From a candidate division Zixibacteria bacterium SM23_81 (GTDB lineage Bacteria > SM23-81): 32,149 bases of DNA. Numbering within the stretch: position 1 is the first letter of the stretch; every line of letters starts with the position of its first letter. Of this stretch, positions 1,747 to 24,866 are shown in pieces. The translations under genes were made by a program, and so were the position numbers. Location of the stretch: the NCBI GenBank assembly GCA_001304015.1, contig LJUY01000025.1, forward strand, positions 1 to 32,149, written 5' to 3'. The notes below the pieces were generated by a model that worked only from the letters and a program-made list of their open reading frames with translations, was not told the origin of the DNA and searched no databases.

Positions 1747-3723
1747 TTAGATCTTCGGTTCAGCCATGGGTCCTTTCTCAAATTCTATCTTCTTCAAGAA
1801 AGCTAACCTTTGCTCAGTGGCCTGTAAGATAAGCCCGAGCATCTCCGCATAGGACATCCCTGCAAATTTTGCCATCTTGGCCAGGTGTCCATCCCAGCAC
1901 CACCCCGGATTTGGATTCACCTCCAGAAGCTTTGGTTTGCCGGCAGCATTTAGTCGCCAGTCAAACCGGCAATAATCTCTGCACTCCAGCCTCTCAAATA
2001 GCTTCGAACACCATTCCAAGATGTCCTTCTCCGTCTCCTCGGTCAGCTGAGCGGGTACAGATTTGATGGCTTTCCAGTAAGGGGAGTCCGGAAGCCATTT
2101 GGCCTCATAACCGCAAATTTTGGGGAGACCTTCTGGAAGTTCCGAGTAATCCTCCTCGATAATAGGCAGAGTTGTGTAGGATTCAGGAGGATTCCCGATG
2201 ATGCCCACGCTGAGATCCTTGCCGCTGAGAAATTCCTCCACAAGAATGGGCTTGTCGTAGCCAAATTTCTCTCGTATTTCTGTAATGGCATTGACCAATT
2301 CCTCGATGCTGTTGGCGACACTCCTCTCGGTGATTCCAAAACTGGAATCACCGAGATTTGGTTTCACGATAACGGGAAAGTCAAAGAAAAGTTCAAACGT
2401 TTGGTCCTCCGGCTTGATGAAGAAGGCCTCGGGTACAGGAATTCCCATCTCTTCGGCAATACCCCGCACCAGAGACTTGTCATAACAGTAAGCGAGACAT
2501 TGCGGTCCCGAGCCTGAATAGGGAATGCTAAGCATTTCCAGCGCTGCCGGTATATGAAGCTCCTTGGTGGCCTCGTTGTTGTAGCCCTCGTCGGACAGAT
2601 TAAAAATGTAGTCCAAAGTACCTTTCAACTTCATCAAATCCTGGATCAAGGTGTCGTGGTCGCTCAGGTAGGTAAAATGATAGCCGGTCATTTCTCGCAA
2701 AGCTGATTTTAACTGATCAATGGTGTATAGATCGTCATCATCAAAGATCGCTGATGGTTTCAAAGGATCGGGTCTGTTGGGATCTCCCAGTATCACGGTG
2801 ATTTTTTTTACTGCTTCCCTTGGCTTTCTTTTAACGGGCGTCCACTCTTTTCTGGCGATCGCGGTTACGATGAGGCGCTGTTGCATCATGCCTAAATCCT
2901 GTTTTCGCTTGGAATCAGGGGAAATTCCCTGGTGCAAGATCCCCTCAGCTAAACCTGATGTTTTCAAAAGCTCCATTAAGCTTTCTTTGGTATAGAGTCT
3001 TTCTGCATAAAATTGATCTGCAATCACACCCTTTGTCGTATGGGTGATGACTTCCCTTGATATGAGACTTTGCCCATCGAGGGACAGGGAACGTTCCCGG
3101 CACACGAAATGGTTTTTGTCTATCCATTCCCAAGAGCGGGTTTGAAAATTTTCTCTTAAATATTCTCCATCGGTGACATCGATAAGCATTTTGCCCCAAG
3201 GTTTTAAAACTCGCCGAACTTCTTTTAACACTCTCAGGTCATCGTGAACTGTTTCAAAATAACCGAAGCTGTTGCCCAGTATCATAACCACATCAAAGGT
3301 ATCAGGTAAATATGGCAATTTTCGAGCATCCCCCTCTCGAAATTTCACATTTAAGCCATTTTTCTTGGCAGATGATTTAGCCCTTTGAATGAGATAGTGG
3401 GAGCGGTCCAATCCTTCAATATGTTTGAATTCTCTTCTGGCTAATTCCAGAGCATGGCGTCCCTGTCCACAGCACAGATCTAGGACTTTTTCTTCCTGAG
3501 AGAGTTTTAGAATCTCCGAGAACAATTCAATTTCTTGACAGGTTATGTCTTTGTCGTCTATGACGTCTCCATCGGTCTTCAGATAAAGGGAGTTGAAAAT
3601 GTAGCGCCACCAATCAGGACGCACATGCTCCTCAAGATTTGCGACAGGCCCCAGTATTTTTCTAACCTGTTTGCCACTTTTTCCGCTTTGCGGAGGTTTT
3701 TCCGGGCATGTTTTTTTATTCAT
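1747..3723 (-). CDS. Fused SAM methyltransferase / D-Ala-D-Ala-ligase-like ATP-grasp protein
   Basis: This 658-residue, two-domain protein is the last gene of a four-gene minus-strand operon. Residues about 70-292 form a class I methyltransferase: motif I is KVLDLCCGQGRH (about 79-90), followed by GLD (Asp about 106), GDARKLP, and FDVVMILGNSFGY in place of the usual motif IV. A charged linker rich in Lys and Arg (about 293-306) leads to an ATP-grasp domain (about 307-643) of the D-alanine-D-alanine ligase type. That domain has NLSDEGYNNEATKELHIP and IPYSGSGP, the ATP-binding VIVKPN (Lys about 453), VEEFL, and the metal-binding LLEVNPNPG near 599-606. ATG 3723 is chosen because a GA-rich site precedes it; the upstream TTG at 3780 has no ribosome site and adds 19 unlikely residues. 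Known relatives activate a carboxylate with ATP and join it to an amine. Its substrate is unknown; the operon suggests an amino acid or polyamine conjugate (inference). Confidence 0.82.
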   Translation of the reverse strand: MNKKTCPEKPPQSGKSGKQVRKILGPVANLEEHVRPDWWRYIFNSLYLKTDGDVIDDKDITCQEIELFSEILKLSQEEKVLDLCCGQGRHALELARREFKHIEGLDRSHYLIQRAKSSAKKNGLNVKFREGDARKLPYLPDTFDVVMILGNSFGYFETVHDDLRVLKEVRRVLKPWGKMLIDVTDGEYLRENFQTRSWEWIDKNHFVCRERSLSLDGQSLISREVITHTTKGVIADQFYAERLYTKESLMELLKTSGLAEGILHQGISPDSKRKQDLGMMQQRLIVTAIARKEWTPVKRKPREAVKKITVILGDPNRPDPLKPSAIFDDDDLYTIDQLKSALREMTGYHFTYLSDHDTLIQDLMKLKGTLDYIFNLSDEGYNNEATKELHIPAALEMLSIPYSGSGPQCLAYCYDKSLVRGIAEEMGIPVPEAFFIKPEDQTFELFFDFPVIVKPNLGDSSFGITERSVANSIEELVNAITEIREKFGYDKPILVEEFLSGKDLSVGIIGNPPESYTTLPIIEEDYSELPEGLPKICGYEAKWLPDSPYWKAIKSVPAQLTEETEKDILEWCSKLFERLECRDYCRFDWRLNAAGKPKLLEVNPNPGWCWDGHLAKMAKFAGMSYAEMLGLILQATEQRLAFLKKIEFEKGPMAEPKI

Positions 3724-3787
3724 GGTTTCTTCCCACCACCTTATTCGCCAGGTTACTTTTTTGCCTGCGCACCAGGACAACGGTTTT

Positions 3788-4705
3788 TTAAGCTTGGCCT
3801 TTCAAGTTCTTTGATACTAATCTCTTGTTCGCAAACACACAACCTAAAAATTTATACACAATTTTCGCCGCTAGAAAATCTGGAGCTACCTGACCCGGGA
3901 TGGGAGCCAACTCGACAACGTCGAAGCCCACCACCTCTCTCTCGGCGGCTACCCGTCGCAGCAGGTCCAGAATCTGGTTCCAGCTTAAACCTCCTGGAAC
4001 GGGTGTCCCCACCGACGGCATGATGCCTTGGTCCAGTACATCCAGATCGATGGTCACATAGACCTGGTCAGAAAGGCTTTCCAAGACTTTGGAGATCCAC
4101 TCGGGATCTGTGAGGATTTTGTGGACGAACATTACCTTGAGGTTGCCCTCTCGAACGTGGTCCATCTCCTCCAGGGATAAGCTGCGAATACCCACGGCCA
4201 TGGCGGGGCAGAGCTCTCCAATGCGGCGCATGGTCGAGGCGTGGCCCCACCTGGTATGATGATACCGGTCACGCAGGTCGGCGTGTGCATCCAGCTGCAG
4301 CACCGACATGTCGGGATATTTCTCCACATAAGCCTGGACGGCGCCCACGGTCACTGAGTGCTCTCCCCCCAGGAGGACCACAAATTTGTTCTGATGGAGA
4401 TACTCACGGCATCGCAGGGAGACTTTATGGATCATGTGCTCCGGGGCACTGTAGTCGGGCCAGATAGGTTTGGCGGTGTGGATGCCTAGTTGAAAGGGCT
4501 CGGCGTCCAACTCGGGGTCATAGAGCTCCAGGTGAGCGGATGCCTCGATGATGGCCCTGGGGCCATGACGGGTGCCGGACCGATAGCTGACCGTGCCCTC
4601 GTACGGCACGGGAAGCATGACCACTCGGGAGGAGTCCAGGGTTGTATCCAGGCCCAGAAAAACGCCGGGCGTGGCCTCTTCGGAGAAATTTGGCCTATGG
4701 CTCAT
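3788..4705 (-). CDS. speB: Agmatinase (ureohydrolase family)
   Basis: Agmatinase hydrolyses agmatine to putrescine and urea with a two-manganese centre. The 305-residue protein carries the full set of ureohydrolase metal ligands: His116 in LLGGEHS, Asp139/His141/Asp143 in QLDAHADLRD, and Asp220/Asp222 in VTIDLDVLD. The family ELAP segment is at 265-268, and the length is typical. The frame extends upstream to 4873, but that stretch overlaps the preceding gene. ATG 4705 lies 8 bases after the stop of that gene and gives a normal N-terminus. Next to an arginine decarboxylase gene, agmatine is the most likely substrate; formiminoglutamate or arginine cannot be excluded by motif alone. No strong Shine-Dalgarno is visible, which suggests translational coupling. 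Confidence 0.88.
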   Translation of the reverse strand: MSHRPNFSEEATPGVFLGLDTTLDSSRVVMLPVPYEGTVSYRSGTRHGPRAIIEASAHLELYDPELDAEPFQLGIHTAKPIWPDYSAPEHMIHKVSLRCREYLHQNKFVVLLGGEHSVTVGAVQAYVEKYPDMSVLQLDAHADLRDRYHHTRWGHASTMRRIGELCPAMAVGIRSLSLEEMDHVREGNLKVMFVHKILTDPEWISKVLESLSDQVYVTIDLDVLDQGIMPSVGTPVPGGLSWNQILDLLRRVAAEREVVGFDVVELAPIPGQVAPDFLAAKIVYKFLGCVFANKRLVSKNLKGQA

Positions 4706-4713
4706 AAGTACAT

Positions 4714-5733
4714 CTATGGTTTTGGGGAGTTCATGGAAGGCGCAGTATCCTCCAGCCACTCGGCCAGGGCCGATACCAGTAAAGGCAGCGCGATGGTGGC
4801 GTCGCAATGGATAGAGACTTTCTTGGCCTGTGGAGAGATCTTTCCCCAGGATTGAGCTTCGGCAAAAGTGCATCCGCTCAGGCCGCCCCAGTGGGGGGCG
4901 TCGGCGGTAATCTGAATGGCGTACTCGTGCCCACCGACCTCGTGGCCCATCGATTTCGCCGTCACTTCGGCCTGCTGGATGAAATTCTTGGGAGTGCCTC
5001 CGCCCACGTAGATCACTCCCGTGGAGGGAGCTTTGGCCACAAGATCGGCCAGCTCCTCCACATCGGCGATGAGGTCGAACTGCACCGCAGTGCGCCCTTT
5101 TTTATCGCCCACGGCCAAGGCGATGCCGATGGAGGAGTCTCCTATGGCCGGGCAGTAAATGGGAACGGCCCCTTTGGCTGCTGCGGTGAGGATGCCCTCC
5201 TCATGGGCTTCCTTGGTCAGATGTTGGCCCAAACGACGGAGAAATTCCCTTGTGGTATAAGGGCTTTGCGTTTGAAGAGTCGCGGCAAAGTCGATGATAA
5301 ACTGGTCGGTTTCTCGGAACTCTTTCTCGCTGGCGAATGTGTCGTAGATGCGGTCGATCTTATGCTCTCTAAGTTTCAAATCATCGGCCATAGGTGAGCC
5401 CTTGAAGTGTTTTTTCCCCAGGCTCTCATGACAGTCGTGAAACAGATTGGCGCCGGTGGAGACCAGACAGTGGATGAGTCGTTTTTCTAGAAGATATACC
5501 AAAATTTTGCGCATCCCCGCCGGAACCATGGCTCCGGCCAAGCCGAAAAGGACAGTGATCTGTTTCTCGATCATCTGTTGCCAAATGGTCAAAGCCCGCC
5601 CGAGGTTTCTCCCCTGAAAGGAGGTGTCGGCCATCTTTTCTAAAAGGGCGCAGGCCGTGAGCTTTTCGTCCACCTCAAAGGGGATGACGGGCTTGTGTAG
5701 AAAGAACTCTTTTGATGCTTCTTTTTCCCGCAT
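4714..5733 (-). CDS. Deoxyhypusine-synthase-like protein, probable homospermidine-type aminobutyl transferase
   Basis: The 339-residue protein has the deoxyhypusine synthase fold: the NAD-site STGAN motif (92-96) followed by FHDCHESL, YVGGGTPKNF (242-251), and HWGGLSGCTFAEAQSWGK, in which Lys298 matches the catalytic lysine that carries the aminobutyl imine in the eukaryotic enzyme. In archaea and eukaryotes the enzyme transfers an aminobutyl group from spermidine to eIF5A. Bacteria lack eIF5A, and related plant enzymes make homospermidine from putrescine, so a free polyamine is the likely acceptor here (inference). It lies between arginine decarboxylase (38 bases upstream) and agmatinase (8 bases downstream). 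ATG 5733 gives the usual N-terminal length, although no clear ribosome site precedes it. Confidence 0.85.
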   Translation of the reverse strand: MREKEASKEFFLHKPVIPFEVDEKLTACALLEKMADTSFQGRNLGRALTIWQQMIEKQITVLFGLAGAMVPAGMRKILVYLLEKRLIHCLVSTGANLFHDCHESLGKKHFKGSPMADDLKLREHKIDRIYDTFASEKEFRETDQFIIDFAATLQTQSPYTTREFLRRLGQHLTKEAHEEGILTAAAKGAVPIYCPAIGDSSIGIALAVGDKKGRTAVQFDLIADVEELADLVAKAPSTGVIYVGGGTPKNFIQQAEVTAKSMGHEVGGHEYAIQITADAPHWGGLSGCTFAEAQSWGKISPQAKKVSIHCDATIALPLLVSALAEWLEDTAPSMNSPKP

Positions 5734-5771
5734 AGGTAAAGATAGGTGTGGGAAAGACCCAATTAGTGCAG

Positions 5772-6347
5772 CTATAAAATAAGGATGGCACCGGCCAAAA
5801 CTGTTGTCCAGAGCCCCGTTTTGTCACCAACCGCCGATTGGGTCGCGTTTGTGGTCCTCACGATCTGACCGCTGATGCGCCAGATCTCCTTTTTATCATC
5901 ATAATTGCTATCGGGATCGAATGCCACTCCCAGGGTATTGGCCAGCATGCTGGCTGCCAAATCTTCTGCGTAATCGCCTGCGACCCTTTCCGTCTGGCCA
6001 AAACTATGGTGCTCTGATAAATATCCGTAGTTGCTTCTGTTTTTGGGAAGCGCCACGCCGATGGAAGCAGCCAGCAGGCGGTGCGGTTCGTTGGCAGCGT
6101 TTTGACTTAAGACGCACAAGACGATCTGGCCTGGGGTGAGCAAATGAAGACCGGCTTTTCTAGAGATCACCTGACAATGTGGGGGAACGATGCTGGAGAC
6201 CTTGACCAGATTAAATTCTGCAATGCCCGCATTCCTCAAGGCCAGCTCAAAGCTGGATAGCTTTTCTCTGTGGCGACCAACTCCTTTTGTCAAAAATAAT
6301 TTCTTTGGCACCCAAACGGGGGTGGAATGCTCTGTTTGCCTTTTCAA
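5772..6347 (-). CDS. pdaD: Pyruvoyl-dependent arginine decarboxylase (PvlArgDC)
   Basis: It decarboxylates arginine to agmatine. The proenzyme cuts itself between two serines, and the second becomes the pyruvoyl group that serves as cofactor. The cleavage motif is present as LVKVSSIVPP, with scission expected between Ser51 and Ser52, very close to the position in the Methanocaldococcus enzyme. LTPGQIVLCVLS and the basic/acidic GYLSEHHSFG segment also fit the family, and 191 residues is normal. The start is read as TTG 6347, preceded by GGGGAG about 9 bases upstream. As the first gene of the polyamine operon it supplies agmatine to the agmatinase two genes later. The upstream region holds a TATAAC-like -10 candidate (minus strand, 6405-6400) without a clear -35. 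Confidence 0.9.
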   Translation of the reverse strand: MKRQTEHSTPVWVPKKLFLTKGVGRHREKLSSFELALRNAGIAEFNLVKVSSIVPPHCQVISRKAGLHLLTPGQIVLCVLSQNAANEPHRLLAASIGVALPKNRSNYGYLSEHHSFGQTERVAGDYAEDLAASMLANTLGVAFDPDSNYDDKKEIWRISGQIVRTTNATQSAVGDKTGLWTTVLAGAILIL

Positions 6348-12735: not shown

Positions 12736-14268
12736 TTGCTGGTTGCCTTCTGGTCGTTATTGAAGACCGATGAATTTTTGTTCCACCTTATCTATGCCCT
12801 GGCCCTATTGGTGGGACTGGAGGTCATCTATCGTCTGCTGGCCCGATTTAAGGCCATCCGCATCTCCTCGTTTCTGGCTCGCCTGGCCATTATTCTGATC
12901 TCGCTGTGGTTTTTTCTTGTTCTTTCCCAAGTGCCTCCGGACTCCTTCGGCATGAGGCTGCTGCAGGCCGCCGCCCTGTTCTTGGCCATCCTCATCGTGT
13001 TGAATTTGCTGGATTACCTGTTCGTCGACCGTTTCCTGTTGGCCAAGCGCAAAATAAAGGTCCCGGTGCTTTTACATGAACTGATCAAAATCGCTCTGCT
13101 GATACTCATTCTGTTTGTGATCATCTCCAAGGTCTTCCAGGCCAGATTGTCTACCCTATTGGTCAGCTCGGCGGTGGTCTCAGCGGTCATCGGTTTAGCT
13201 CTCCAGGATGTTTTGGGCAACATCGTCGCAGGTGTGGCTCTGCACGTGGGCAAGCCCTTCAAGGTTGGGGATTGGGTGAAAGTCAGTGATCAGGTTGGCG
13301 CTGTTATCCAAACCAGCTGGCGTTCCACAACCATCAGGACCCTTGATGGCGACTTCGTGATCATACCCAATGGCAGCATCTCCAAAGAGGAGATCGTTAA
13401 CTACTCTGCGCCCAACCCCCGCCATGCCCAGTACGTCCAGGTGGGCACCCGATACGAGATGCCGCCCAACCTGGTCAAAGAGACCATGGCCGAGGCGGCG
13501 CTGCAAACAGCAGGGGTGCTGGCTGAGCCCAAGCCTCAAGTGTGGCTTATCGAGTACGGCGATTTCGCCATCAACTACAAGATGAAGTACTGGATCGACG
13601 ACTTCCCACGTCATTCACACATCGGGGATCAAATTATGACCCGTATTTGGTATCTGTTCCGTCGACAGGGGATCGGCATCCCCTTTCCCATTCGGGACGT
13701 GAATCTCTTTACCGTATCCCCGGAGGTGCAGGAAAGAGGGCGGGTCGAGAGGGTCGCCAGCATCTTGGAGGTTCTAAAAAGAGTGGAGATCCTCAAGCCG
13801 CTCTCCGGAGAGGAGATGAAGCGATTGGCCGAAGGTGCACGAGCCCATCGATATGCTCTGGGAGAACCTATCGTCCGGCAGGGAGAGGAGGGGGACTCCT
13901 TCTTCGTCATCACCTCCGGCCGTGTGGAAGTGAGTGCCTCAGACGAAACGGGAGCCAGAGCTGTTCTGGCTCAGCTGGGGGGAGGTGACTTCTTCGGGGA
14001 GATGTCGCTGCTCACCGGAGAGAGGAGGTCAGCCACCGTGACGGCTTTGGAGGACACCGAGATGATCGTGGTCGACAAGGCCAACTTCGCCCAAGTGATT
14101 ACCGCAAATCCATCCATCGCCCAATCCCTCAGCGAGATCTTGGAGCGGCGCCTTATTGAGAACGCTGCCAAGATGGCCGAACTGGAGAGAGCGCGTCCCA
14201 AAGAAAAGAGTGCGGTGGAATCTCGCGATAGCTTGCTAAAACGCATCCGCAGCTTTTTTCGCCTGTAA
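12736..14268 (+). CDS. MscS-family ion channel with C-terminal cyclic-nucleotide-binding domain
   Basis: The 510-residue membrane protein has four or five N-terminal helices (about residues 12-30, 42-62, 70-93 and 112-132), then the pore-lining helix and MscS core (LLVSSAVVSAVIGLALQDVLGNIVAGVAL, about 138-170; VGDWVKV; FVIIPNGSISKEEIVNYS). After the cytoplasmic cage, residues about 350-470 form a CAP-type nucleotide-binding domain with VRQGEEGDSFFVITSGRVEV and the phosphate-binding cassette GDFFGEMSLLTGERRSATV, which keeps the key Glu and Arg. Fusions of this kind are known as cyclic-nucleotide-gated MscS relatives, often with weak mechanosensitivity. TTG 12736 is chosen because AAGGAG (12723-12728) lies 7 bases upstream and no ATG fits. 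It has its own promoter, and a terminator lies 40 bases downstream. Confidence 0.9.
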   Translation: MLVAFWSLLKTDEFLFHLIYALALLVGLEVIYRLLARFKAIRISSFLARLAIILISLWFFLVLSQVPPDSFGMRLLQAAALFLAILIVLNLLDYLFVDRFLLAKRKIKVPVLLHELIKIALLILILFVIISKVFQARLSTLLVSSAVVSAVIGLALQDVLGNIVAGVALHVGKPFKVGDWVKVSDQVGAVIQTSWRSTTIRTLDGDFVIIPNGSISKEEIVNYSAPNPRHAQYVQVGTRYEMPPNLVKETMAEAALQTAGVLAEPKPQVWLIEYGDFAINYKMKYWIDDFPRHSHIGDQIMTRIWYLFRRQGIGIPFPIRDVNLFTVSPEVQERGRVERVASILEVLKRVEILKPLSGEEMKRLAEGARAHRYALGEPIVRQGEEGDSFFVITSGRVEVSASDETGARAVLAQLGGGDFFGEMSLLTGERRSATVTALEDTEMIVVDKANFAQVITANPSIAQSLSEILERRLIENAAKMAELERARPKEKSAVESRDSLLKRIRSFFRL

Positions 14269-18333: not shown

Positions 18334-19863
18334 ATGCCAGCTGTGGTTATCGATGGAGAAAAGCTCACCTTGGGGGATGTGGAGCGGGTTGCCGTGAAAG
18401 GAGCGCCACTGAGACTGTCCGCCAGGGCTGTCCAAAAGATGAGAGGTTCTCGCCACCTGGTGGAGAAGGTACTTAGCTCGAAAGAGATGGTTTACGGCAT
18501 CAACACCGGGTTTGGAAGGCTCTGTCAGGTGGTTATTCCCAGGGGCCAGATTCAACGTCTCCAGAGAAATCTGGTAGTCAGCCATGCCGCCGGGGTGGGC
18601 CGCCCTCTGCCCAGCGAGCTGGTCCGAGCCTTGATGCTGCTGCGAGCCAACGTTTTGGCTAAAGGGTATTCTGGCGTTAGGCCAGAGGTGGTTGAGATCT
18701 TGGTGGCCATGCTGAACGCCAAAGTCCATCCAGTAGTCCCTGAGCAGGGGTCGGTGGGAGCAAGCGGCGATCTGGCGCCCTTATCTCATGTAGCTCTGGC
18801 CCTCATCGGTAAGGGTCAGGTGACCTATCGTGGGAAGCGGATGCCTGCGGCCCGCGCCCTCAAAATGACGGGACTGGCACCTTTGAAACTGCAGGCCAAG
18901 GAGGGATTGGCCCTGCTCAACGGAACTCAAGCCATGACGGCTCTGGGCTGTCTGACCCTTCTGCGCGCCGAACTCTTGGCCAAGACAGCCGATATTTCCG
19001 GAGCTTTGAGCCTGGAGGCTTTGCTGGGTACCATGGCGTCCTTCCATCGTCGCCTTCATGATGTCAGACCCCACCGCGGGCAAAGAAATTCAGCCCGAAA
19101 CCTCCGCTTCCTCATGCGCGGTAGCCAGATCATAGCTTCGCACCGGGACTGCCCCAGGGTGCAGGATGCTTACAGCCTGCGGTGTATGCCCCAGGTACAC
19201 GGCGCGGCTCGAGACACCTTTCGGCACGTTCGTGAGGTCCTGGCTGTGGAGGTCAATTCGGCCACAGATAATCCCCTTGTTTTCCCCGAGGAGAAGTTGA
19301 TCATCTCCGGGGGAAATTTTCATGGCCAGCCAGTGGCTGTGGCCATGGATGCTTTGGGGATGGGCCTTTGTTCTTTAGCAAACATCTCAGAACGTAGGAT
19401 CGCCCGGCTGATGGACGACAACGTGAGCCAGCTGCCTGCCTTTTTGTCCTCCAAGCCCGGTCTAAACTCAGGATTCATGATGGCTCAGACCACGGCCGCC
19501 GCTCTGGTGTCGGAGAACAAGGTCCTGGCCCATCCCGCCAGCGTTGATTCCATCCCCACTTCGGCAAACCAGGAGGATTATGTCAGCATGGGAATGACCG
19601 CTGGGCGCAAGGCCTTGCAGATATTGGAGAACGCCGAGATGGTCGTGGGCATCGAGCTGCTCTGTGCCGCTCAGGGTGTGGATCTGCGGTCGCCCCTGAA
19701 GCCGGGAAGAGGCACTCTGGCGGCCCATAGGGCTATCAGGAAGCACATCTCGCGCCTGGATGAAGATCGCATCTTGGCTCCAGATCTAGAGCGCGCCGCC
19801 GCTCTGGTCCGGGAGGGAGAGGCGCTGAGGGCCGTGGAGCGAACCGTAGGGAAATTGTTGTAG
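18334..19863 (+). CDS. hutH: Histidine ammonia-lyase
   Basis: It removes ammonia from L-histidine to give urocanate, the first step of histidine breakdown. The 509-residue protein has the self-forming MIO prosthetic group motif Ala143-Ser144-Gly145 within GSVGASGDLAPLSH, almost exactly the position in the Pseudomonas enzyme. The active-site Tyr54 lies in VYGINTGFG, and NSATDNPLVF and GNFHGQPVA also fit the family. Length is typical. ATG 18334 is preceded by GAGGAGG about 7 bases upstream. The remaining hut genes (hutU, hutI) follow about 2 kb downstream on the same strand, separated by an unrelated secreted-protein gene. Phenylalanine or tyrosine lyases share the fold, but the hut context settles the substrate. 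Confidence 0.94.
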   Translation: MPAVVIDGEKLTLGDVERVAVKGAPLRLSARAVQKMRGSRHLVEKVLSSKEMVYGINTGFGRLCQVVIPRGQIQRLQRNLVVSHAAGVGRPLPSELVRALMLLRANVLAKGYSGVRPEVVEILVAMLNAKVHPVVPEQGSVGASGDLAPLSHVALALIGKGQVTYRGKRMPAARALKMTGLAPLKLQAKEGLALLNGTQAMTALGCLTLLRAELLAKTADISGALSLEALLGTMASFHRRLHDVRPHRGQRNSARNLRFLMRGSQIIASHRDCPRVQDAYSLRCMPQVHGAARDTFRHVREVLAVEVNSATDNPLVFPEEKLIISGGNFHGQPVAVAMDALGMGLCSLANISERRIARLMDDNVSQLPAFLSSKPGLNSGFMMAQTTAAALVSENKVLAHPASVDSIPTSANQEDYVSMGMTAGRKALQILENAEMVVGIELLCAAQGVDLRSPLKPGRGTLAAHRAIRKHISRLDEDRILAPDLERAAALVREGEALRAVERTVGKLL

Positions 19864-19904
19864 GGATCGGGTTTGAGCAAAATTTTTTGAATGCGGGTTA
19901 AGAT

Positions 19905-21674
19905 ATGAACGCTAAAGCAAAATCTTGCCTACTTATTGTTCTGTCTTTGCCTCTGCTCCTCTGTAACCCGGCTTGGGCCGCTGCAACAGAACTGGCCTGG
20001 AGCGCCTTTTTGGGAGGTAACGAGGACGAATTTGACTCGGACATCGCCGCAGACAGCTTCGGCAACGCTTATGTGACCGGGCTCACTCAATCAATCGATT
20101 TTCCCACCACAGTTGGCGTTTTCGACACGACCTACAACGGGGGATATAGTGACGTTTTTGTGGCCAAGATTAATCCCACCGGAACCGCCTTTTCCTACGC
20201 TACTTTCCTGGGAGGAAGTGGTGTTGACCATGTTTTGGGCATTTGCTTGGACGGTACCAGTAATGCCTACGTGACCGGGGAAACTCGTTCAACAGATTTT
20301 CCCACCACAGCTGGCGCTTTTGATACGACATTTAGCGGCGGTTATTATGATGTCTTTGTGGCTAAACTCAACTCTACTGGAAGCATCCTCGAGTACTCCA
20401 CCTTTCTAGGAGGAGACCAGGCTGAAACTGGCTCTGCCATCACCGTGGACAGCGCCGGCAACGCCCACATAACTGGGATGACCCAATCAGACGGCTTTCC
20501 CACCACCGCCGGTGCGTATGATTCCATATTCAACGGTGGCGATGATGTTTTTGTGGTCAAGCTCAACTCCGCAGGAAGTGCCCTCAAGTACTCTACCTTT
20601 CTGGGGGGACAGGACGACGATAGTGGTCATGATATCTCCTTGGATGGTTCTGGCAATGTCCACGTCGTGGGGGAGACTCGTTCATCTGATTTTCCCACTG
20701 CTGCTGGGGTCTTCGATGAGATACACAACGGCTTATACGATGTCTTTATAGCTAAGCTTAATTCCACGGGAGGCGTCCTTGATTATTGTACTTTCCTGGG
20801 AGGAAACGATGACGACTATGGCTCAAGCATCTTCTTGGACGGTTCCGCCAATGCGTATGTGACCGGAGAGACTCGTTCATCCGATTTTCCCACCACCGCA
20901 GAAGCTTTCGATACCACACTTAACGGATCCAGTGATATTTTTGTGGCCCAGCTTAATGCGGCAGGGAACGATCTTAACTATTCGACTTATCTAGGAGGAG
21001 ATTCCATCGATATAGGCCTTGACATCAGCGTTGACGACGCCAACAATGTTTACGTGACAGGGGAAACTGTTTCGGCCGACTTTCCCATCACCGCTGGGGC
21101 TTTCGATGAGATTTTTAACGGAGTATGGGACGTCTTTGTGGTCAAGCTCAACTCCGTAGGAAGCACTCTCGAGTATTCTACTTTCCTGGGAGGAAATGAT
21201 TACGATGGTGGCCGTGGCATCTTCTGGGATGGTTTCGGAAACGCCTACGTGACCGGGGAAACGTATTCGTCCGATTTTCCCGTTACTTCTGGGGCTTTCG
21301 ATACCACACTCGATGGATATTCCGATGTCTTTGTGACCAAGCTGAGCCTGGGTAGCACTGCAGTCGAATCAGGAGCTACACTAGATGTGGTGCCAAAGAC
21401 CTGTGCCCTCCATCAGAATTACCCCAATCCTTTCAACGCCATCACCGAGATCCGCTATGAGATCCCTAAACATAGCCATGTGACCTTGAATATCTTTAAT
21501 ACACTGGGGCAGGTGGTGCGGACTCTGGTGGATGGGAATCAAAGAGTCGGTTCGCATACGATCTTTTGGGATGGTCGAGACGGTGATGGAAAAGAGGTAG
21601 CCAGCGGTTTGTATTTCTGCCAGTTGAAAGCGGGTGATTTTGATAATACCATCAAGATGGTATTGGTGAAGTGA
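19905..21674 (+). CDS. Secreted SBBP-repeat protein with FlgD-like / type IX-type sorting tail
   Basis: The 589-residue protein has a signal peptide (LLIVLSLPLLLCNPAWA, cleavage near Ala25-Ala27) and seven SBBP repeats of 65-66 residues each (about residues 30-481), a bladed beta-propeller type. Each repeat contains FLGG, GNAYVTGET, a DFPTTAGAFDTT segment and DVFVAKLN. The last 90 residues form the sorting tail, with NYPNPFNAITEI, LGQVVRTLVD and SGLYFCQLKAGDF, ending in KMVLVK. Relatives are surface or extracellular proteins of unknown ligand. The gene lies between hutH (41 bases upstream) and hutU on the same strand, with no obvious link to histidine breakdown. The start has only a weak GGTTAAG site. 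The propeller may bind polysaccharide or mediate adhesion (inference). Confidence 0.85.
   Translation: MNAKAKSCLLIVLSLPLLLCNPAWAAATELAWSAFLGGNEDEFDSDIAADSFGNAYVTGLTQSIDFPTTVGVFDTTYNGGYSDVFVAKINPTGTAFSYATFLGGSGVDHVLGICLDGTSNAYVTGETRSTDFPTTAGAFDTTFSGGYYDVFVAKLNSTGSILEYSTFLGGDQAETGSAITVDSAGNAHITGMTQSDGFPTTAGAYDSIFNGGDDVFVVKLNSAGSALKYSTFLGGQDDDSGHDISLDGSGNVHVVGETRSSDFPTAAGVFDEIHNGLYDVFIAKLNSTGGVLDYCTFLGGNDDDYGSSIFLDGSANAYVTGETRSSDFPTTAEAFDTTLNGSSDIFVAQLNAAGNDLNYSTYLGGDSIDIGLDISVDDANNVYVTGETVSADFPITAGAFDEIFNGVWDVFVVKLNSVGSTLEYSTFLGGNDYDGGRGIFWDGFGNAYVTGETYSSDFPVTSGAFDTTLDGYSDVFVTKLSLGSTAVESGATLDVVPKTCALHQNYPNPFNAITEIRYEIPKHSHVTLNIFNTLGQVVRTLVDGNQRVGSHTIFWDGRDGDGKEVASGLYFCQLKAGDFDNTIKMVLVK
19992..21347 (+). 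repeat. Seven tandem 195-198 bp coding repeats (SBBP units)
   Basis: FLGG (YLGG once) recurs at residues 35, 101, 167, 232, 297, 362 and 427 of the encoded protein. That gives steps of 66, 66, 65, 65, 65 and 65 residues. The units are clearly related at DNA level (for example the GATTTTCCCACCAC block recurs), so the array may change copy number by recombination. Confidence 0.9.
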
Positions 21675-21734
21675 GGTGGATAGGTTGGAGATCCTGTTCC
21701 CTTCTTGGAGTCATTGAGAGCCCTACGTTTCACT

Positions 21735-21772
21735 CAGAGCTTGTTCCTTCATTTTATTCAGGACAGGCTCTG
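21735..21772. repeat. Inverted repeat between the SBBP gene and hutU
   Basis: CAGAGCTTGTTC (21735-21746) pairs with GGACAGGCTCTG (21761-21772), with two G-T pairs, around a 14-base loop. No T run follows, so it is not a normal terminator. It may mark RNA processing or be a mobile-element remnant. Confidence 0.55.
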
Positions 21773-21845
21773 AATGGAATGGAGGGATAGACTCCGCTTA
21801 GGGCTTTGGCCCACGCACTTCTCGTAATGAAAAAACCTTTGAATT

Positions 21846-21870
21846 TTAGATAGTTAAACAGTTTATCTAA
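21846..21870. promoter_or_regulatory. Palindrome upstream of hutU, possible operator
   Basis: TTAGATA (21846-21852) and TATCTAA (21864-21870) are perfect inverted repeats around an 11-base spacer, about 25 bases before hutU and overlapping where a promoter or leader would be. This is the geometry of a dimeric repressor site, but it could also be a weak hairpin. Confidence 0.35.
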
Positions 21871-21893
21871 GAAAAAAGTTGAGGTGAAACATC

Positions 21894-23546
21894 ATGCCTA
21901 TACCTAATATCAAAGCCCCTCACGGCACCGCTCTGTCCTGCCGCGGTTGGCATCAAGAGGCGGCCATGCGCATGTTGATGAATAACCTAGATGCTCAAGT
22001 GGCTGAGAAGCCGGAGGAGCTCATCGTCTACGGGGGCACAGGGAAGGCAGCCCGTAACTGGGATTGCTACCGGGCCATCGTGGAGAGCCTGAAAAACCTG
22101 GATGACGAAGAGACCCTTGTGGTCCAGTCCGGCAAACCCGTGGGGATTTTCCGGACCTATCCACAAGCCCCTCGGGTGCTCATCGCCAACTCCCTTTTAG
22201 TGCCTGAGTGGGCCACCTGGGAGCATTTCTGGGACCTGGAGGATCGCGGCCTGATCATGTATGGCCAGATGACGGCGGGAAGCTGGATCTACATCGGCAC
22301 CCAGGGCATTCTTCAGGGAACCTACGAGACCCTGGCAGAGTGTGCCCGGCAGCACTTCGGGGATTCCCTAAAGGGCAAGCTCGTGCTCACCGCCGGTATG
22401 GGAGGGATGGGTGGTGCCCAACCCCTGGCGGTGACCATGAATGAGGGTATATGCCTGGACGTGGAGGTAGATCGAGAGCGAATCAAGAGGCGCCTGGACA
22501 CGGGCTACTGCGATACCATGACCGAGAGTCTGGATGAGGCCCTGAAGCTGGTGGAGAAAGCGATCAGCCGAGAAGAACCCCTGTCAGTGGGTTTGGTAGG
22601 CAACGCCTCGGAGACACACCCCGAATTGGTGAAAAGGGGTATTACCCCGGATGTGCTCACCGATCAGACCTCTGCACACGACGCTCTCAATGGATATGTG
22701 CCGGGCAAGATGAGCCTGGCAGAGGCCCTGGAGCTCAGAAATAAGAATCCGAAGGAATACACAAAAAGGGCCTATGAATCCATGGCCATTCACGTGGGGG
22801 CCATGTTGGCCATGCAGAAGAAGGGGGCAGTGACCTTTGACTACGGCAACAACATCCGCGGGCAGGCTCAAAAAGCTGGTGTGGCCAACGCCTTCGATTT
22901 CCCCGGCTTCGTTCCGGCTTTTATCCGACCTCTGTTCTGTCACGGCAAAGGCCCCTTCCGCTGGGCAGCCCTGTCCGGCGATCCCCAGGATATTCGCAAA
23001 ACGGATGAAGTGGTGCTCCGGGAGTTTCCCCAGGACACCGCCCTGGGGCGGTGGATCCGTCTGGCCCAGAAGAAGGTGCAGTTTCAGGGATTGCCCTCCC
23101 GCATCTGCTGGCTGGGATATGGCGAAAGGGCGCGCTTCGGCAAGATCATCAACGAGATGGTGGGCCGAGGGGAGCTGAAGGCCCCCATCGTCATCGGACG
23201 CGATCATCTTGATTGCGGATCGGTGGCCTCGCCGCATCGGGAGACGGAGGGGATGAAGGACGGGTCCGACGCCATCGCCGACTGGCCCATTCTCAATGGC
23301 TTATTGAACGCGATCTCGGGAGCCTCCTGGGTCTCCGTGCATCACGGAGGGGGTGTGGGCATAGGTTTGTCCATCCACGCCGGGATGGTCATCGTGGCCG
23401 ATGGTACCAAGGAGATGGCTCATCGGCTGGACCGGGTACTGACCAATGACCCAGGTATTGGCGTGGCCCGTCATGCCGACGCTGGATATGAGGAAGCTAT
23501 CCAGACGGCCAAGAAAAAGGGCATCTGCATCCCTATGATGAAATGA
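21894..23546 (+). CDS. hutU: Urocanate hydratase
   Basis: It adds water to urocanate to give imidazolone propionate, using a tightly bound NAD as an electrophile. The 550-residue protein carries the urocanase signature [10 protein letters not shown] with the active-site Cys405 (Cys410 in Pseudomonas). It also has the NAD-binding [12 protein letters not shown] (168-179), [14 protein letters not shown] near residue 46, and [20 protein letters not shown] near the C-terminus. Length is normal. ATG 21894 is preceded by GAGGTGA about 7 bases upstream. It is followed 24 bases later by hutI, so the two are probably co-transcribed. A palindrome lies just before the gene. Confidence 0.96.
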
Positions 23547-23570
23547 AAGACTGCGGATCTGGAGCGGAAT

Positions 23571-24866
23571 ATGTCTCATAGAGAAGTTGACCTGATCGTT
23601 AAAAATGCCACTCAGCTCTTGACTTTACAATCTGAGAATCGAGGGCCCCGCAGGGGCGTCCAGATGGAGGATCTGGGCCTGGTGAGCGACGGGGCTGTAG
23701 CCGTCGCCGATGGTCACATCGCGGCTGTGGGGACCACCCGGGATGTGCTTGATGCCGTTTCTCCCAGCGAGGTGACGAAGGTAATCGACGCCACAGGCAA
23801 GGTGGTTATGCCCGGATTCGTCGATCCCCATACGCACCCGATCTTCGCCGGTTTACGGGAGCAGGAGTTCGAGCTTCGCATCAAAGGGGCATCGTACCAG
23901 CAGATCGCCGCCAGCGGTGGCGGAATTCGATCCAGCGTGCATAGCCTCCGCCAATCCACGAAGAGGGATCTGAAAGAACAGGCCCGGCCGAGACTGGACC
24001 GAATGCTGGCCCTTGGGACTACAACAGCTGAAGCAAAAAGCGGTTATGGACTTAACCTCAAGGATGAGATTAAGTCCCTAGAGGCTATCAATGAGCTGAA
24101 CGAGACTCACCCGCTGGAGCTGATTCCAACCTTTTTGGGCGCCCATGAGGTTCCAGACGAGTTTAAGCAAAACAGAGAGGAGTACATTCGTCTGGTGTGT
24201 GAGGAGATGATCCCGCAGGTGGTTCGTAGAGGACTTGCTGAGTTCTGCGACATCTTTTGTGAGAGGGGCGTCTTTGATGTGGAGGAGTCCCGGGAGATCT
24301 TGACCGCGGCCCAAAATGCTGGGCTGAAGCTGAAACTTCACGCCGATGAACTGGCCGCCAGCGGCGGGGCTTTTCTGGCCGCTGAGTTGGAGGTCATTTC
24401 CGCCGATCATCTGGTCTTCGTCTCCCAAGAGGGCATCGATGCCATGAGAGAGGCGGGGGTCATTGCCGTGTTGCTCCCCGGCACCACCTTCAGCTTGGGT
24501 TTGAGCCGGTATGCTCCGGCCCGCCGGATGATCGATGCTGGGCTTCCCGTTGCCCTGGCAACAGATCTAAATCCCGGAAGCTGCATGACGGAGTCTATGC
24601 CCATGATTATCACCTTGGCCTGTCTGCAGATGGAAATGACGCCAGCCGAGGCGATTACCGCTGCCACCGTCAATGCCGCTTACGCCGTGGACAGGGATCA
24701 ACAGTTGGGCAGCATAGAAGTGGGGAAACAGGCGGACTTGGTGGTCTGGGACATGCCAAACTACAAGGTTTTGCCTTACCACTTCGGGGTGAACCTGGTT
24801 GAGATGGTGATGAAGTCGGGTCGAGTGGTCTATCGCCAGGGCCAATTTCTCTATGGGGGGGGTTGA
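23571..24866 (+). CDS. hutI: Imidazolonepropionase
   Basis: It opens the imidazolone ring to yield formiminoglutamate, the third step of histidine breakdown. The 431-residue amidohydrolase has metal ligands His87 and His89 in GFVDPHTHPIF, His257 in LKLHADEL, the catalytic-region His280 in SADHLVF, and Asp332 in ALATDLNPGS. The N- and C-terminal beta-sandwich parts (MSHREVDLIVKN, and a late VVWDMPNYKVL) are intact. ATG 23571 has GGAG about 10 bases upstream. The gene ends in a run of eight G (24855-24862), which also lies immediately before lptE. The next enzyme (HutG formimidoylglutamase, or FtcD) is not in the window. Confidence 0.95.
   Translation: MSHREVDLIVKNATQLLTLQSENRGPRRGVQMEDLGLVSDGAVAVADGHIAAVGTTRDVLDAVSPSEVTKVIDATGKVVMPGFVDPHTHPIFAGLREQEFELRIKGASYQQIAASGGGIRSSVHSLRQSTKRDLKEQARPRLDRMLALGTTTAEAKSGYGLNLKDEIKSLEAINELNETHPLELIPTFLGAHEVPDEFKQNREEYIRLVCEEMIPQVVRRGLAEFCDIFCERGVFDVEESREILTAAQNAGLKLKLHADELAASGGAFLAAELEVISADHLVFVSQEGIDAMREAGVIAVLLPGTTFSLGLSRYAPARRMIDAGLPVALATDLNPGSCMTESMPMIITLACLQMEMTPAEAITAATVNAAYAVDRDQQLGSIEVGKQADLVVWDMPNYKVLPYHFGVNLVEMVMKSGRVVYRQGQFLYGGG

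Follow-up and report, generated by a model that had tools for sequence, protein, structure and literature searches.

Two described polyamine systems come closest to the locus analysed here. The speD-speB-speY cluster of Ca. Marinimicrobia, examined as a case of arginine decarboxylation by SpeD homologues, groups pyruvoyl-dependent arginine decarboxylase (ADC) activity with a ureohydrolase and a deoxyhypusine synthase (DHS) homologue, with no SpeE in the cluster (PMC10407285). In Thermus thermophilus, caldomycin synthase, a DHS-family enzyme with a catalytic Lys, is combined with a ureohydrolase, and two positions, D243 and D316 in human DHS numbering, were singled out as different in this enzyme (PMC10981699). 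A third point of comparison is D-alanine--D-alanine ligase (Ddl): the C-terminal half of the fourth gene product described below has its entire fold and its ATP-binding loop, together with the Mg/ATP residues (R586, D588, E601 and N603) and the omega-loop Lys (K542).

The window, a 32,149-nucleotide stretch of DNA from the candidate division Zixibacteria bacterium SM23_81 (GenBank assembly GCA_001304015.1, contig LJUY01000025.1), carries the same combination of decarboxylase, DHS-family and ureohydrolase genes. It differs from the Marinimicrobia cluster in having a PvlArgDC-family decarboxylase in place of the SpeD homologue and, downstream, a gene fusing a SAM methyltransferase to a Ddl-fold ATP-grasp ligase. 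Most likely these are two separate things side by side: an agmatine-based homospermidine operon, and an independent, horizontally scattered bifunctional fusion enzyme.

Gene layout of the locus

The four genes lie on the minus strand. The first encodes a pyruvoyl-dependent arginine decarboxylase (5772..6347, TTG start; PF01862 E = 5.6e-58, TIGR00286 above cut-off) with the VSSIVPP stretch that members of the family are expected to have at the self-cleavage site. A gap of 38 bases leads to the gene for a DHS-family enzyme, probably homospermidine-forming and SpeY/CdmS-like (4714..5733; PF01916 E = 2.2e-98; NF002006 441.8 bits, cut-off 434), whose stop is separated by 8 bases from the ATG at 4705 of an agmatinase-family ureohydrolase gene (3788..4705; PF00491; TIGR01230 238.7 bits, cut-off 174.3). 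A longer agmatinase reading frame from 4873 overlaps the DHS gene and is not a likely start. Pfam and NCBIfam thus place the three enzyme families of an agmatine-based homospermidine cluster in direct adjacency.

The fusion gene (1747..3723; Methyltransf_25 and Dala_Dala_lig_C) begins 64 bases beyond the agmatinase gene with an ATG at 3723 that is preceded by GGTGGTGGGAAG and has a Shine-Dalgarno-like GGGAAG. A TTG start at 3780 would reduce the gap to 7 bases and is unlikely, since the alignments with relatives begin at about residue 17-20, close to the ATG at 3723. Judged by the E-values, none of the four genes taken singly is a chance match. Inspection of the interval between the agmatinase and fusion genes found no obvious terminator on their strand, and with a shared strand and a 64-base gap the fusion gene may well be co-transcribed with the three genes upstream. 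The initial annotation had described a four-gene operon ending in a gene with methyltransferase and ATP-grasp domains. Its domain assignments, the single orientation and the 38- and 8-base gaps that hold the first three genes together are all borne out, but the fourth gene, 64 bases away, is not tightly coupled to them.

Other features of the window include a second SAM methyltransferase gene, this one stand-alone (897-1652), which is convergent with the fusion gene and weakly similar to RiPP methyltransferases of the daptide type (126 bits, cut-off 175), and a mechanosensitive channel of the MscS type with a CRP-like cyclic-nucleotide-binding domain at its C-terminus (12736-14268). Genes for histidine degradation, namely hutH, hutU and a hutI-like amidohydrolase, lie in one orientation at 18334-24866, with a beta-propeller-repeat protein bearing a C-terminal FlgD-Ig/sorting-type domain encoded between hutH and hutU (19905-21674).

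Distribution of the three-gene cluster and of the fusion gene

DHS-family loci were collected from 60 genomes searched as relatives and from 80 genomes hosting the fusion gene, yielding 55 loci outside the window's own genome, each with at most 1.5 kb of flank. Within this flank, a PvlArgDC relative adjoins the DHS-family gene at 12 of the 55 loci and an agmatinase relative at 11; one or the other is present at 17, and both at 6. The closest cluster, in an Aerophobetes genome, has the identical gene order with 68/58/45% identity. In a second genome (G033), PvlArgDC and agmatinase are paired with a DHS-family protein that passes the caldomycin-synthase cut-off (565.6 bits), and in a third (G018) a SpeD homologue occupies the place of the decarboxylase beside a relative of the window's DHS-family gene, as in the Marinimicrobia cluster (PMC10407285). 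The ADC, DHS-family and agmatinase genes are therefore a recurrent, recognisable cluster of an already known kind.

The fusion gene behaves differently. A scan covering a single genome for each species identified at least 578 relatives, and the best 80 of these, 66-76% identical over nearly their whole length, were taken for comparison of loci. The family keeps 65-76% identity from end to end across about 20 bacterial and archaeal phyla, and the best 80 come from, among others, Atribacterota, Aminicenantes, Planctomycetota, Spirochaetota, Actinomycetota, Chloroflexota, Asgard archaea and Methanophagales, although the hosts are mostly metagenome bins and single assignments can be wrong. Searches of 873 kb of flanking sequence around these best 80 (E <= 1e-3) found the decarboxylase, DHS-family and agmatinase genes near none of them, while the same queries do detect relatives beside DHS-family genes. 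Conversely, the fusion gene stands beside none of the 55 other DHS-family genes within about 1.5 kb. Nor are the two associated at the level of genomes: a DHS-family gene is present in 28/80 fusion-gene hosts, no more often than in the background of 60 relatives' genomes (23/60; Fisher p = 0.72), and the 60-genome search returned just two full-length fusion copies, the window's own and one in genome G043 (72% identical).

Clustering of all reading frames from the 80 loci revealed no other conserved partner, the largest neighbour family being a generic-looking one at 9 loci. Only 18/67 of the upstream neighbours and 21/75 of the downstream ones lie within 100 bases on the strand of the fusion gene. 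In a tree of the fusion gene the phyla are mixed, with little backbone, and its GC and GC3 contents (46.2/50.7%) fall below those of the agmatinase (56.6/68.0%) and DHS-family (55.4/66.5%) genes. In a search for a vehicle, neither plasmids nor phages yielded a full-length copy, and viral contigs yielded none. The lone loci, the lack of co-occurrence with DHS-family genes, the mixed tree and the deviating base composition together say that the fusion gene arrived and lives independently of the three genes upstream. One observation runs counter to this: the nearest relative in the tree belongs to an Aerophobetes genome (G060) that also has the nearest three-gene cluster, on a different contig, and the two may have had a common donor.

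These data bear directly on the initial proposal that all four genes form one pathway, with the polyamine product of the first three being conjugated or methylated by the methyltransferase/ligase. The arrangement in the window (one strand, 64 bases, no terminator found) favours such a pathway, as do domains suited to methylation and amide formation. However, the four-gene order, whose rarity elsewhere had been named in advance as counting against the proposal, is a one-off among the loci compared, absent from the best 80 of at least 578 fusion loci and from the 55 DHS-family loci; the hosts are not enriched in DHS-family genes, and the fusion gene differs from its neighbours in base composition. 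We consider a joint polyamine pathway very improbable. The fusion gene looks like a chance neighbour of the homospermidine operon.

The fusion enzyme

In the N-terminal half of the fusion protein the SAM motif is intact, residues D82, C85, G86, G88 and R89 being invariant, and the nearest solved sequences to this half are the stand-alone methyltransferases 9ri2 and 1ve3. Structural alignment with VIA-align gave only Ddl-type matches, and the methyltransferase half was therefore placed by sequence. The C-terminal half is predicted as a complete D-Ala-D-Ala ligase fold (AlphaFold pLDDT 80.9) that superposes on Ddl with Z of 25-29 and rmsd of 2.6-3.7 over 273-314 residues. The ATP-grasp residues K542, R586, D588, E601 and N603 are invariant, so that both the Ddl fold and its ATP-grasp catalytic residues are present.

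The substrate-binding regions depart from this pattern. Alignment with the Ddl encoded elsewhere in the same genome showed that the D-Ala recognition segments (GGxSxERxVS and HGGxGEDG) are replaced throughout, GGDSPERDVS and HGGIGEDG of that Ddl corresponding to GDPNRPDPLKP and SDEGYNNE in the fusion protein. The second-substrate loop is also unlike that of the genome's own Ddl, and the fusion protein has NPNPGWCWDGH where Ddl has NTLPGMTQHS. A Trp stands in for the omega-loop Tyr, and the fused methyltransferase is a further difference from Ddl. The curated models for Ddl are not reached (TIGR01205 118.1 bits, cut-off 245.65; NF002378 125 bits, cut-off 243).

It is accordingly hard to credit that the protein is a ligase of the D-Ala-D-Ala or D-Ala-D-Lac type, serving the cell wall or glycopeptide resistance, that happens to be fused to a methyltransferase. 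Its top PDB sequence match is VanA (E 3e-25) and its ATP-grasp half does superpose on Ddl, but all the cut-offs listed for Ddl, VanA and related curated models are missed by about half or more, the D-Ala recognition segments are lost, a canonical Ddl is present elsewhere in the genome, and the family also occurs in archaea, which are without murein. The natural reading of the modelled fold and the altered segments is that the C-terminal half would be a carboxylate-amine ligase acting on something other than D-Ala.

From the domain architecture, the intact SAM and ATP motifs and the lone distribution, we infer the two activities and the kind of substrates used. The first half would methylate with SAM, and the Ddl-fold half would activate a carboxylate with ATP and then join it to an amine. 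The substrates are probably ordinary metabolites present in any cell, because the gene travels alone through bacteria and archaea. We tentatively suggest, at somewhat less than even odds, a self-sufficient two-step enzyme combining a SAM methyltransferase with a Ddl-fold amide ligase, which would make a methylated amide from common metabolites and has spread singly among about 20 phyla.

The part of the full-text literature covered by our search describes no methyltransferase/Ddl fusion. An approach to function through tandem Ddl-like pairs about 30% identical was set aside, as these loci (L142 and L143) belong to a different family, beside a lysine-aminomutase-like reading frame. They form an arrangement in their own right, with tandem or single Ddl-like ligases and a frame judged by eye to resemble lysine 2,3-aminomutase (L142 3863-7162, L143 3504-5807), which recurs in other phyla.

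Probable product of the DHS-family enzyme and wider meaning

The genome is 92.6% complete, and statements on its gene content rest on family searches. No match to IF5A (PF21485) was found in it, whereas the control search was positive in four archaea, and no AdoMet decarboxylase (SpeD) was found, with working controls; an incomplete genome could hide an IF5A or a SpeD. The search for a PLP-dependent arginine/ornithine or carboxynorspermidine decarboxylase likewise found none in this genome, its sole PF02784 match being lysA. The single spermine-synthase-family match is a 765-aa MFS/spermidine-synthase fusion below the speE cut-offs. The initial reading of the first three genes, that arginine is converted via agmatine into a homospermidine-type product without AdoMet decarboxylase, gains support from the lack of IF5A and SpeD matches in the whole genome and from the recurrence of the cluster. 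The genome also encodes a protein of the agmatine-deiminase/peptidylarginine-deiminase family (contig C32, 13867-14787; 630-aa frame), which is probably exported and not part of polyamine synthesis because of its N-terminal hydrophobic stretch.

The window's DHS-family protein keeps the catalytic Lys in SWGK and, like Thermus caldomycin synthase (PMC10981699), has hydrophobic residues (Ile and Leu) at the positions of human D243 and D316, a combination that discriminates weakly since it is common to many DHS-family members. These active-site residues are suggestive only as to whether agmatine or putrescine would be the substrate. Unlike the Thermus enzyme, the protein misses the NCBIfam caldomycin-synthase model (275 bits, cut-off 500), and it passes the two models named deoxyhypusine synthase, NF002006 (by the score given above) and TIGR00321 (326.1 bits, cut-off 304.25), which speaks against an operon for homospermidine. 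That the protein is a genuine deoxyhypusine synthase with a protein lysine as its target, as those model names would have it, is nevertheless highly unlikely, since the IF5A substrate was not found in this genome by a search that was positive in all four archaea, the gene is recurrently linked to arginine decarboxylase and agmatinase, and the D243 and D316 positions carry Ile and Leu. As an observation on the family, several genomes hold two DHS-family paralogues (L119 and L129 in G061, L148 and L163 in G132, L150 and L164 in G107); in G061 one adjoins an agmatinase relative (DSEYGI motif), whereas the other resembles archaeal-type DHS in its DGAVG motif, which suggests that a single cell has one copy of the polyamine type and one of the hypusine type.

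Given a genome without IF5A and AdoMet decarboxylase, homospermidine is the most likely product of the DHS-family enzyme. From the gene identities, the recurrent clustering, the kept catalytic Lys and these two absences, we infer this product and the possible orders of steps. The pyruvoyl decarboxylase would convert arginine to agmatine, the DHS-family enzyme would carry out an aminobutyl-type transfer with NAD+ via a lysine-imine intermediate, and the ureohydrolase would take off urea. In a SpeY-type route, agmatine would be converted to putrescine and then to homospermidine; in a route like that of Thermus CdmS, two agmatines would be coupled to bis-guanidino-homospermidine before the ureohydrolase releases homospermidine. 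Both routes call for the same genes, and sequence does not decide between putrescine and bis-guanidino-homospermidine as the intermediate.

The three-gene cluster is one more AdoMet-free homospermidine cluster, with a PvlArgDC-family decarboxylase, and its DHS-family enzyme is of a type labelled deoxyhypusine synthase in databases, yet encoded in a genome without a detected IF5A. The fusion enzyme matters more: it is strongly conserved, scattered, apparently uncharacterised and present in many uncultured lineages, and it should point to an unnamed small molecule common to its host organisms.
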